Shown here piece after piece: positions 25,344 through 29,739 of a stretch of 64,000 nucleotides of DNA. The position numbers and the translations under genes were made by a program. The notes beneath the pieces were generated by a model. That model searched no databases and had not been told where the DNA came from. It was given only the letters and a program-made list of their open reading frames with translations. The DNA comes from Thermus amyloliquefaciens. GTDB lineage: Bacteria > Deinococcota > Deinococci > Deinococcales > Thermaceae. The DNA is taken from assembly GCF_000744885.1 (NCBI RefSeq), contig NZ_JQMV01000003.1:868001-932000 (forward strand). The letters are read 5' to 3'. Position 1 is the stretch's first letter; every line of letters starts with the position of its first letter.

Positions 25344-25419
25344 GGGCCCGTAGCTCAGTGGACAGAGCAGCCGCCTTCTAAGCGGTAGGTCGGGGGTTCG
25401 AATCCCTCCGGGCCCGCCA
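25344..25419 (+). tRNA. tRNA-Arg (anticodon TCT)
   Basis: A 76-base cloverleaf: acceptor GGGCCCG pairs with CGGGCCC, discriminator G and encoded CCA. Anticodon loop CTTCTAA reads TCT, and the T loop is GTTCGAATC. Accessory DNA starts right after it. Confidence 0.97.
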
Positions 25420-25438: not shown

Positions 25439-25466
25439 CACCCCCCGGTAGTGTGGCCGGGGGGTG
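25439..25466 (+). terminator. hairpin after tRNA-Arg
   Basis: Perfect 10-bp stem CACCCCCCGG / CCGGGGGGTG with an 8-base loop. It lacks a T tract, so it is a probable but not classical terminator. Confidence 0.5.
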
Positions 25467-25593
25467 CCTCATACGGTTTACCTACGGTTTATCGCGGGGG
25501 TTTATCCCTCCAAGACACGCTTATGGCCAGGACCAGGAAAAGCCTTGGCGCCCTAATAGAACTCCCCATGACCTCATCCGGCAGAATGTGCTT

Positions 25594-26282
25594 ATGCAAC
25601 TGGCTAAGCACCAACGCCGCCCCAGGCTGGAACTCAAGAACCCTCCCCACCCCGACAACCTCCACGCCCTCTATCGGGAGACAGAAGACCCAGTGGAACG
25701 GGCCCACTGGCACGCCCTGTGGCCTTTGGACCCTATCCCCCAGGTGGCCAAGATCCTGGGTTACTCCGATGGGCCTTGGACGAGCATCGCTTGGGCCTGA
25801 AGCCCCTCCGCCGTCGCCTGTGGGCCCTGCGGGGGAAGACCCCTCTGGTCTGGGAGAGGCCGCGCTATCGGTGGCTTTACGTCTACACCTTCGTGCGGCC
25901 CAACACGGGGGAGAACGAGCACTGGCTGTTGCCCTCCGTGGACACGGTGTCCTTTGAGGCGGTTTTGAGGGCCTTTGCCCGGGGCCGAGGGGCTGGGAAG
26001 GGCAAGGTGGTCTTGGTGGTTCTGGACCGGGCGGGGTGGCATACTTCCCCGAAGCTGCGGGTACCTGAGGGGGTGGGGTTGGTGTTCTTGCCGCCCTATT
26101 CCCCGGAGCTGCAGCCGGTGGAGCGGGTGTGGAGCTTGGTGGATGCGGGGGTGGCCAATGGGCAGGTGGAGACGGAGGAGGAGCTTTGGGAGCGGGTGGA
26201 GGCGCGGTGTGCGTACCTCCGGACCCAGCATGCCCTCATCCGGAGCTACACCCTCTTCCACTGGTGGCCTGGGGGGAGCTGA
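25594..26282 (+). pseudogene. IS630-family transposase remnant with internal deletion and frame change
   Basis: The first part (to TGA 25800) carries a helix-turn-helix region typical of IS630 N-termini (ETEDPVERAHWHALWPLDPI then KILGYS). From about 25776, in another frame, comes the catalytic part: DEHRLGLKP (first Asp), VVLVVLDRAGWHTS (second Asp) and FLPPYSPELQPVERVWS (final Glu), ending at 26282. The stretch normally between the HTH and DEHR, well over 100 residues, is gone. I could not define terminal repeats. The element is inactive. Confidence 0.7.
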
Positions 26283-26313
26283 GGGAGGGGTGTAAATTTC
26301 TTATCAAGGCGGC

Positions 26314-26490
26314 TCACCGGACCCACACGTACCCGTCCTCCCGGAAGGCGGCGGCCACGGCGGCGAGCGTCTCGGGTCGGGCCGCCTCGCCCATCCTGCC
26401 CAGGGTTTCGGCGGCCCAGGCCCGGGCGGAGGGGGCCTCGCAGGCCTTCCGGAGTCCGGGCCAGTCCTTCCTCCTGCGAGGGATGCATTG
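26314..26490 (-). pseudogene. C-terminal fragment of a helical-repeat (HEAT-like) protein
   Basis: On the minus strand a frame open from about 26490 to TGA 26314 reads KDWPGLRKACEAPSARAWAAETLG and then RMGEAARPETLAAVAAAF, a helix-pair pattern like a HEAT repeat. No start codon or upstream part is present. It lies just behind the methylase remnant on the same strand. Low confidence, because it rests on a short repetitive pattern. Confidence 0.3.
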
Positions 26491-26508
26491 GCAACACGGC
26501 CGCCGGTC

Positions 26509-27225
26509 TCATCGCAAAATCTTCTCCACCAACGCGTCTATTTCCGCCAGCTCCTCTTTCAACAAATCCCGCGCCATACGGCGTAATCGGCCGATGCTGG
26601 CGACGGTGCCTGCGCCGCCGCCGGCAAGCCATGCCTTTACCTTTTCGCTGCATCGCTTGCCCAGTTGCGCGAGCCGTCGGTGTGTCGGATCGGCGGCGTC
26701 GAATTGGGGAATAGGGAGCTCGAGAGGTTTTTTGTGAATGTCGCGCGGCCCCCAAGAGCCGCGACTTTGCATCGGCTTGAGCATCCTGTCGACCGTCGGC
26801 GCGTTGAGTATAGACGCAAGAAACGACGCCTCGTCGTAGCTGCTTAGTTCACAGTAATAAACCTTGGTATCAGTAATAAACCTTGGTATCCGCAATAAAT
26901 CCACGCACCCGGATACTCTGATCCCCAACTTTAAACTCGATGGGCTCCGGTTCCACGACGGCCGCAGTCAAAAATGTCCCAGAACCGTTGTAGAGCACCC
27001 GGTAATTCGCTTGAGGATTCTGCTCAGTCAGGTCCTTTCTGTAATCAAGCCGCTCAAGCGCCGTCATCCTTGCCGCCTTCGCGCCTCGCCGCTTCGTCCA
27101 CTCCCCCTGCACCTTGGCCAGCCACTCGGCCAGATGCACATAGCCTCTGCGACGTGCTTCCTCCTCGTTCATCAGCCTATAGCGGTTTCCCGCTGGCTCA
27201 ATCGGCAGGACGACCAGGCGGTATT
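26509..27225 (-). pseudogene. C-terminal part of an N6-adenine DNA methylase (Eco57I/type II-like), broken by a 19-bp duplication
   Basis: Two frames join into one protein tail. The first (27225 down to 26870) reads VVLPIEPAGNRYRLMNEEE, EWLAKVQGEWTKRR, LERLDYRKDL and QSIRVRGFIADTKVYY, then stops. The second continues VYYCELSSYDEASFLASILNAP and MQSRGSWGPRDIHKKPLELPIP, ending DALVEKILR at 26509. This is the target-recognition/C-terminal region of large N6-methylases of restriction-like systems: the DEASFLASILNA and GPRDIHKKPLELPIP motifs are characteristic. The catalytic N-terminal half is missing because an IS sits at 27226. Base composition is less G/C-rich than the surroundings, suggesting transfer. 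Confidence 0.65.
26852..26889. repeat. 19-bp perfect tandem duplication inside the methylase remnant
   Basis: CAGTAATAAACCTTGGTAT occurs twice back to back (26852-26870, 26871-26889). Removing one copy rejoins the two methylase frames exactly (ADTKVYY to CELSSYDE). So this duplication caused the frameshift. Confidence 0.95.
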
Positions 27226-28139
27226 CCTTCGTTTGCTACTTCAAAGCTCCACCCCTGCCATCTTCAGGAGAACCCGACTCCGGATGAGGTTGTGGGCTAA
27301 GAGGACGAGGTTCACCCTCGCCACCAGCCCCCAGTAGGAACGAGCCTCAACCCGCCCAAGCCCCAGGGAACGCACCATCACACTGAAACGCGTCTCGATC
27401 CAGTTTCTCACCCTCCCCATCCACTCCCGCCATCCCGTCTCCACCACCTGTCTCCCCCGCAGGCGATAAGGTGGGGTGAGAACGCCCTCCACCCAGCGAA
27501 AGCCTCGGTCCCCCAGAACGTGCTCCAGCCCCTCCAGAAGCCCCCTGGCCCAGGTTTCCCGGGCATTCCCGGGCAACAGGGCCCAGCGGTGAAACAGCCC
27601 CCGGTCGTTGATGACCCCCACCAGGGCGTAGCCCGCAAAGCCTCCCAGGGGCCCCACGCCAATCCCCGATCCGGGCAGGGCATAGCCCCGGATGCGGTGG
27701 CCGTGGGCCATGGGGAGGGGCTTCAGGTCTACCACGTGCAGGAGGCTGGGCCCCTGAGCCAGGCGGAGGGCCAGGTGGGCCAGGAGGGGCTGGGCGTTTT
27801 GCAAGACGCGGAGGAAGCGGGAGAGGTGGGGTAGGGAGGGGAAGTAGGGGCGGAGGAGGGATTGGGAGAGGAGGTAGCCTTTGCTGAGGTCCAGGCCCAA
27901 GAAGGTCAGGGAGAGGGCGATGGCCAGGAGTTCGGGGAGGGTGGCCTTTTGGTGCTTTTGGGGTTTTGGCAAGCGCATTCCTTGGGCTTGGAGGGCTTTG
28001 AGCTGGTCATCGACCCAGACGTAGGTAGCCACCAGGAGGGTTTCTGCGTCAATATGGTAAAGGGGATGCTCGCGATCGAGTCGCATGGCATCCCCCTTTT
28101 TTCATGTCCTGGGGGTGCAGGTCAAGTAGCAAACGAAGG
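27226..28139 (-). mobile_element. insertion sequence, about 914 bp, with 16-bp terminal inverted repeats
   Basis: CCTTCGTTTGCTACTT at 27226-27241 is matched by its exact reverse complement at 28124-28139. One full transposase ORF lies between. Flanks differ (methylase coding on the left, NurA coding on the right) and I see no target duplication. That suggests a deletion or recombination between two copies after insertion. Confidence 0.85.
27241..28086 (-). CDS. DDE transposase (IS4/IS5-like group)
   Basis: A 281-residue transposase filling the element between its inverted repeats. The likely catalytic residues are Asp in HVVDLKPLP, Asp in VLGDRGFRWVEG and Glu in WIETRFSVMVR, and the C-terminal NLVLLAHNLIRS is typical of the IS4/IS5/IS982 superfamily. 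I cannot assign a named family with certainty. The frame is intact from ATG 28086 to the stop inside the left inverted repeat, so the element may be active. Confidence 0.78.
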   Translation of the reverse strand: MRLDREHPLYHIDAETLLVATYVWVDDQLKALQAQGMRLPKPQKHQKATLPELLAIALSLTFLGLDLSKGYLLSQSLLRPYFPSLPHLSRFLRVLQNAQPLLAHLALRLAQGPSLLHVVDLKPLPMAHGHRIRGYALPGSGIGVGPLGGFAGYALVGVINDRGLFHRWALLPGNARETWARGLLEGLEHVLGDRGFRWVEGVLTPPYRLRGRQVVETGWREWMGRVRNWIETRFSVMVRSLGLGRVEARSYWGLVARVNLVLLAHNLIRSRVLLKMAGVEL

Positions 28140-28649
28140 GATGTCCTGACTCTTGTCCAACGCTTGAAAGGAGATGAGAGGGGTGGTGAGGGATCCATCC
28201 AGGAAGACAACCTCATGTGGTGCTTGCGAGGCCAGTTTCAGTTCCATGCCGATCATCAGGGCACGCAGGATCGTGCCGGTTTCGGCCTCATGAGCTTCTG
28301 TTTCAACCCAAACGAGGTGATGAGGTTCCAGCCAATAGCGTGTTTCGGAGGGAGGCATTAGGCCTTCCACCGCGACGGCCGCCGCGGCGACCAGGTCGTT
28401 GGCCGACAATCGCTCCACAGCATAGGGGCCATCTGCACCGCAAGTCGTCGGGATGGGCATATATGGAAGCTCAGCATCCCGGCGAAGCAAACCCTTATGC
28501 TCCGGGATTTCTCGCCATTCTTGGCGACGAGCGCTTATTTGCTCAAAGTTGTTGAGCAATTCCTGGCCCAGATCCCCGGTGCGTTGGCGCACCTCGTTTA
28601 CTAATGCGGCTGGGAGCTCACCAAAGGGACGCTCTGTAGGTTCCATCAT
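28122..28649 (-). pseudogene. NurA-domain nuclease, 3'-truncated by the IS
   Basis: The frame begins at ATG 28649 or 28646 and encodes about 170 residues before it runs into the IS inverted repeat, which supplies the last codons PSFAT and the stop. The DGPYAVERLSANDLVAAAAVAVEGL opening of the fold and VVFLDGSLTTPLISF (the NurA DGS metal-binding element) mark it as a NurA-type nuclease, the partner of HerA ATPases. The C-terminal part is lost. Third-codon G/C is lower than in core genes. It is probably nonfunctional. Confidence 0.68.
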
Positions 28650-28674
28650 AGGTAGCTCTGGTAGCTCTATTCTA

Positions 28675-29581
28675 ACCCAAGTTGCCACCTATCCCTTGCC
28701 AGGGACTCTGGAACTCGGAAAAAATAGTGGCCGCCATGCTGCAGCAAGCTATAGCGGCCTTCTGCATTATAGACGATGCCCTCAAGGCCATGGGACACAA
28801 GGATGACCCTCAGACCAAGGTACCCACCAGCGCCATTTTGACCCTGGCTGTTCTGGCCGCCTTGGGGCTCGGCGGCAAGCACAACCAAGCCCTGGCCTTG
28901 GCTAAGGAACTCCACCTCTTCAGCCACATCCCCTCCCCCAGCCGCTTCCACCGGCGCCTCCATCGGGCAAAGGTCTACCTCCTCCCCCTCCTCCACCTCC
29001 TGTCCCAGGTTTGGCAGAGGCTCCATACCGCCCAAAGCTATGCTCTGGACACCTTCCCCATCCCCGTCTGCGAGAACATCCGAGCCCCAAGGTCCCGCCT
29101 GGCCCCGGCAAGGGTCTACCGGGGCTACATCCCCAGCAAGCGGGTCTTCTTCACACGGCTACAAGCTTCACCTCTTGGTGGACGATGGACGGTTCATTTG
29201 CGAAGCGAACCTCACCCCAGGGAGCTTCCACGACCTCACCTCCCTCCTGCTGTTGCCCTTGGACATCCCTGAGGGCAAGGAGGTGTGCATGGACCGGGGG
29301 TACGAGAGCGCCCTTTACGAGGACCTCTTGCGGGAGGCCCAGGGTCTGGTGCCCATGCCCATCCGCAAGGTTCGGAGCAAGCGGTATGTGCCTCACCTGC
29401 AGTACCTGGCCATCCTGGGTAGGAGGGTGGTGGAGACGGTGGGGAGCATGCTCCATCAGCTTTTCCCACGGCGTATCCATGCGGTGACCGCGGAGGGGTT
29501 CGTCCTCAAGGTCTTCACCTTCATCCTGGCCCACAACCTGCGGCTCATCGCCAACAAAATCGCTTAGGTGGCAACTTGGGT
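28675..29581 (+). mobile_element. IS982-like insertion sequence, about 907 bp
   Basis: ACCCAAGTTGCCACCTA at 28675-28691 is matched by its perfect reverse complement at 29565-29581 (17 bp, 19 bp if the flanking TA is included). Ends starting with ACCC fit IS982. It lies 26 bases upstream of the NurA start. No target duplication longer than TA is visible. Confidence 0.88.
28736..29567 (+). pseudogene. IS982-family transposase, frameshifted
   Basis: The first frame (from ATG 28736) contains the IS982 hallmarks ALDTFPIPVCENIRAPRSR and VYRGYIPSKRVFF. The second frame takes over near 29153 with HGYKLHLLVDDGRF, LTPGSFHDLTSL, VCMDRGYESALYEDL and VVETVGSMLHQLFP. Removing one A from the TTCTTCACACGG at 29147-29158 joins them. 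This is not a homopolymer and needs a +1 shift, so a real mutation is more likely than the base-calling pattern seen elsewhere. Confidence 0.82.
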
Positions 29582-29739
29582 TAAAGAAACCATTTTTGCC
29601 AGGCGGAGACTTTCCTGAGGACTGGGGGCCTGGCTTCATGTCCCATCCTTGAGCGCTGGCAGGGGCATGGCTTGCTGGTTGGGAAGCTTGCGCGGGCATG
29701 GGCGTGGTATCCTCAAGGCCGGCCCTTGTGGCCCGGCCC

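Follow-up and report, generated by a model that had tools for sequence, protein, structure and literature searches.

Layout of the locus

Behind a tRNA-Arg gene in the window (the whole stretch of Thermus amyloliquefaciens DNA that was analysed, 64,000 nucleotides, numbered from its first letter), two gene fragments lie on the minus strand on either side of one insertion sequence (IS). Read 5' to 3' on that strand, approximately the first 170 codons of a NurA nuclease gene (28649-28140) are followed by the IS (27226-28139) and by approximately 235 codons from the 3' end of an N6-adenine methylase gene (27225-26509). The features of the locus are:

25344..25419, plus strand: tRNA-Arg (TCT); in related genomes a second copy of its 3' half closes the far side of islands
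25453..26295 (borders approximate), plus strand: degenerate IS with a frame-shifted DDE_3 (IS630-type) transposase (PF13358, E 3.5e-20)
25500..29691 (borders approximate), strand unassigned: whole inserted stretch, as compared with the empty site of related genomes
26509..27225, minus strand: remnant of a type IIG-like N6-adenine methylase gene coding for the C-terminal ~235 aa, frame broken (PDLC03630, E 1e-8, and homology)
26853..26890, strand unassigned: 19-bp tandem duplication in two copies, which shifts the methylase frame
27226..28139, minus strand: IS bounded by 16-bp inverted ends, the frame of its 281-aa DDE transposase open, with near-identical copies elsewhere in the genome
28140..28649, minus strand: N-terminal ~170 of ~383 aa of a NurA of an accessory clade, start codon kept
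28673..29583, plus strand: second IS, with a frame-shifted DDE_Tnp_1 transposase, abutting the 5' side of nurA

A previous sequence-only reading had placed both gene pieces accurately and had noted a G+C content lower than that of the core; the values are 0.575 for the methylase tail and 0.573 for the NurA piece (57% in both) versus 0.67 (67%) for the window, a foreign composition. We noticed by eye a short HEAT-repeat-like scrap without a Pfam match at 26310-26470 on the minus strand, in the gap that separates the methylase tail from the DDE_3 IS relic.

Two truncated genes meet at one IS

The ATG of NurA is at 28649 and homology reaches the IS edge at about 28140; homology to the methylase extends from the other IS edge, 27225, to the end of the gene at 26509 (two segments with 51% and 59% identity, E 4e-68), confirming the earlier description of a truncated NurA and a methylase C-terminus flanking one IS on the same strand. 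A different IS flanks NurA on its other side, stopping 23 bp before the start codon.

The NurA fragment shares 53-79% identity with intact NurA proteins of bacteria, with 78% over 170 aa for the Thermanaerothrix protein (E 1e-75). Two other genomes among the 50 of the family match the piece with E-values of 5e-66 and 2e-53, so the match is not due to chance; the clade is patchy, being present in 3 of these 50 genomes with its own genome included. The NurA profile PF09376 stays under the cut-off with the fragment (E 0.12) and recognizes an intact relative from the same genus, G048 (32 bits, cut-off 21). An AlphaFold model was compared with the PDB for a relative (L019) that is 78% identical to the fragment over their common part; the eight best matches were all NurA chains from crystal or cryo-EM structures (E 6e-6 to 3e-3). 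Approximately 55% of NurA is missing from the window copy, including the conserved C-terminal motifs EPYPLY..ADR and HGYRTE, and judging by its sequence the fragment is probably inactive.

The methylase piece covers the last fifth of a large N6-adenine methylase. The catalytic motifs of the enzyme lie upstream of the cut and are lost. Its relatives (37-56% identity) are single genes of approximately 1000-1120 aa, type IIG-like, located among housekeeping genes. They carry N6-methyltransferase motifs and match the PADLOC type IIG model with E 3e-76, and by eye their N-terminus has a PD-(D/E)xK-like stretch, a candidate nuclease. The description as a single polypeptide with N6-methyltransferase motifs applies to these relatives (L067-L071) and not to the window copy, of which the tail is left.

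A different methylase operon was seen in two genomes of the same genus, G039 and G024 (L011 6883-13027 and L012 6406-12576), comprising a type IIG-like methylase, a protein of ~376 aa without a Pfam match and a HerA-like ATPase, the last being 562 aa long in L011 and broken in L012. The C-terminus of its methylase is 26% identical to the window tail.

The NurA clade belongs to a DruA-NurA-HerA cassette

In relatives, the window NurA clade is part of a three-gene cassette composed of DruA (DUF4338), NurA and HerA. An even draw of 400 Chloroflexota genomes contained 21 such loci; NurA is followed by HerA in all of them and preceded by DruA in 17, two of these divergent. Among 20 loci of our genome collection, three of which are shared with the Chloroflexota set, HerA comes after NurA wherever the contig is long enough, and of the 13 bacterial loci whose contigs include the upstream side, 12 have DruA there (one partial). 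The same order is found within the genus, in G048. Many loci have overlapping or almost contiguous genes, in the manner of an operon. The first gene matches the DruA model PDLC00002 with E 1.6e-101; the adjacent HerA-type ATPase of intact relatives belongs to PF01935, and PADLOC HerA models match it weakly. DruA is missing in G019, Pyrinomonas, Lokiarchaeota and four Chloroflexota, so that the window locus may or may not once have held it.

The cassette is spread over hot-spring Chloroflexota, a cyanobacterial MAG and Thermus, and NurA-HerA pairs without DruA occur in Lokiarchaeota. A scan of viral contigs with the NurA alignment found no relative, and a plasmid search with NurA gave two distant matches. 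We also considered whether the cassette is a transposon; homology among cassettes ends at the coding ends, without a common terminal sequence, and it is thus a set of genes rather than a recognizable transposon. No description of the cassette was found in the PADLOC models or in the literature searched (which included few subscription papers and no preprints), and no paper in that literature named both DruA and HerA.

Several neighbourhoods deserve mention. DruE-like, CARF/Csm6-like and restriction-modification genes lie near some cassettes, neighbourhood hints of a possible anti-phage role. The Thermanaerothrix cassette has a lone DruE-like gene of 1721 aa (L168 4643-9808, reverse-complement coordinates) approximately 4 kb away on the other strand. 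The G048 cassette begins with a DruA that carries the N-terminal domain of HsdM as an in-frame fusion (L009 8087-9613). In G022 (L056 315-8140), DruA lies behind genes of 1807 aa and 381 aa on a contig without HerA or NurA, which makes it a DruA locus of a different type within the family.

The tRNA-Arg site as an integration hotspot

In 7 of the 19 readable relatives, an ABC transporter gene lies approximately 90-245 bp behind tRNA-Arg, which represents the empty site. Three genomes (G025, G027 and G048; L105, L117 and L124) carry islands of 7-13 kb there, each closed by a second copy of the last 46 bp of tRNA-Arg, and the first gene of the G025 island is a phage integrase according to Pfam. 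G029 has a 3.4-kb stretch behind tRNA-Arg without the 46-bp repeat; the remaining readable relatives have other genes there and are uninformative on the site. Across these genomes, tRNA-Arg(TCT) is an integration hotspot of the genus. In the window, a 4.2-kb stretch lies between tRNA-Arg and the ABC transporter gene, and neither an integrase nor the tRNA repeat is left in the window, so we infer island integration here from the other genomes.

Origin of the two fragments

Taken together, these observations very probably describe the remainder of a decayed island that holds two separate relics, a NurA from a cassette and the tail of a type IIG-like restriction-modification enzyme encoded by a solitary gene. 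Foreign, IS-ridden DNA would have settled at the tRNA-Arg hotspot before the ABC transporter gene. The first relic would be the N-terminal half of a NurA from a DruA-NurA-HerA (or NurA-HerA) cassette, the second the C-terminal fifth of the solitary enzyme, and a putative IS-mediated deletion would have joined them across one IS. Both fragments would now be non-functional, and the window locus an inert remnant.

The sequence-only reading had linked the losses to IS activity. This link holds in that the IS is where each gene breaks off and that neither HerA nor the methylase body was found in the genome; a deletion between two IS copies, as it proposed, may be presumed, although no strain with an intact locus was found, and an IS-mediated deletion would be the simplest account of the joined fragments. 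HerA, which it had named as the missing partner, indeed follows NurA in relatives. We considered that the missing pieces might have moved elsewhere, but HerA of the cassette type, DruA and the methylase body (in a search without a positive control there) were not found in the window genome, nor were matching pieces found in the flanks of the other IS copies.

The main rival to an IS-mediated deletion is recombination between distant IS copies, by which fragments from separate places in the genome, never part of one island, would have been joined through transposition or recombination. Such an event is possible because the contig has near-identical copies of the IS, two of them incomplete, at positions 253, 289 and 999 kb. 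No target duplication was seen at the IS at 27226-28139, a weak argument for a deletion between IS copies since another full copy of the same IS lacks one as well. Both fragments share a G+C content of 57% and sit at an integration hotspot, which speaks against separate origins, as do the flanks of the other copies, and we regard such a joining as rather unlikely.

A single NurA-HerA-methylase defence operon, the middle of which was deleted between two IS copies, had been the earlier proposal. The two pieces do share strand, composition and the IS at which they are cut, and the L011 and L012 operon, with its HerA-like gene and a methylase 26% identical to the tail in its C-terminus, also speaks for it. 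Nevertheless, the tail and the L011 methylase are no more than distant relatives, the window NurA clade was not found in that operon, and neither fragment's relatives have the other alongside. The methylase family is absent from 191 kb around 15 bacterial cassettes, and NurA, HerA and the cassette DruA are absent from all methylase neighbourhoods examined; the four neighbourhoods read for plasmid relatives of the methylase (28-35% identity) were all without NurA. One MAG (G058) holds both systems on different short contigs, so that the two may or may not be linked there. Among the loci examined, the NurA clade thus occurs in DruA-NurA-HerA or NurA-HerA contexts and the methylase family alone, that is in unrelated contexts and never in one operon. 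A single operon is very unlikely. Least probable of all is that the NurA fragment is a decayed housekeeping NurA-HerA repair copy with no link to defence. In its favour, the Thermus chromosome does encode a HerA homologue, HepA, which acts in repair and in DNA transfer (PMC5448004); against it, the clade is patchy and mostly accompanied by DruA, and the fragment is low in G+C.

In summary, we favour two separate relics in one decayed island.

A putative function of the intact cassette

In the intact cassette, the HerA ring ATPase most likely pulls DNA into the NurA nuclease, a step suggested by the conserved gene order and by the established biochemistry of the HerA-NurA pair (e.g. PMC9960219). 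The fold of DruA gave mostly GNAT proteins, all weak matches with none below E 0.08, from a model of middling quality (mean pLDDT 70); the GNAT reading therefore leans on the description of DUF4338 as a GNAT domain (PMC10853773). DruA, with its weakly GNAT-like fold, may be a recognition or modification factor. The presumed target is invading DNA, with a putative anti-phage role, and we put forward a defence function of the cassette tentatively, at slightly less than even chances. With the same reserve, the relic could mark an undescribed three-gene defence system combining a DUF4338 protein, possibly acetyltransferase-like, with a HerA-NurA DNA-degrading motor. That the window relic pointed to a conserved, patchy DruA-NurA-HerA cassette is an interesting by-product that merits study, and by tying DruA, an enigmatic protein of Druantia, to a motor known to degrade DNA, the cassette would give a handle on its role.

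Comparison with known systems

Intact relatives of the NurA fragment resemble the HerA-NurA complex of archaea and Deinococcus in the NurA fold and in the adjacent PF01935 ATPase. They differ in their patchy distribution, in having DruA as a third gene and in being too distant for a sequence search of the PDB, and the window copy differs further in being truncated and without HerA. Type IIG restriction-modification enzymes (PADLOC PDLC03630) are matched by the relatives of the methylase tail, which are single large proteins with N6-methyltransferase motifs and a nuclease-like N-terminus, whereas the window copy is the frameshifted C-terminal fifth only. With Druantia type I, the cassette shares its first gene, which matches the DruA model, but it lacks the DruE helicase, and the gene behind NurA is HerA; a DruE-like gene lies approximately 4 kb from the cassette in the one locus examined (L019/L168). 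Finally, anti-phage pairs of HerA and a nuclease, such as SIR2-HerA and DUF4297-HerA, likewise have a HerA ATPase gene beside the gene of an effector enzyme, except that the cassette has NurA as its effector and DruA as an extra gene.
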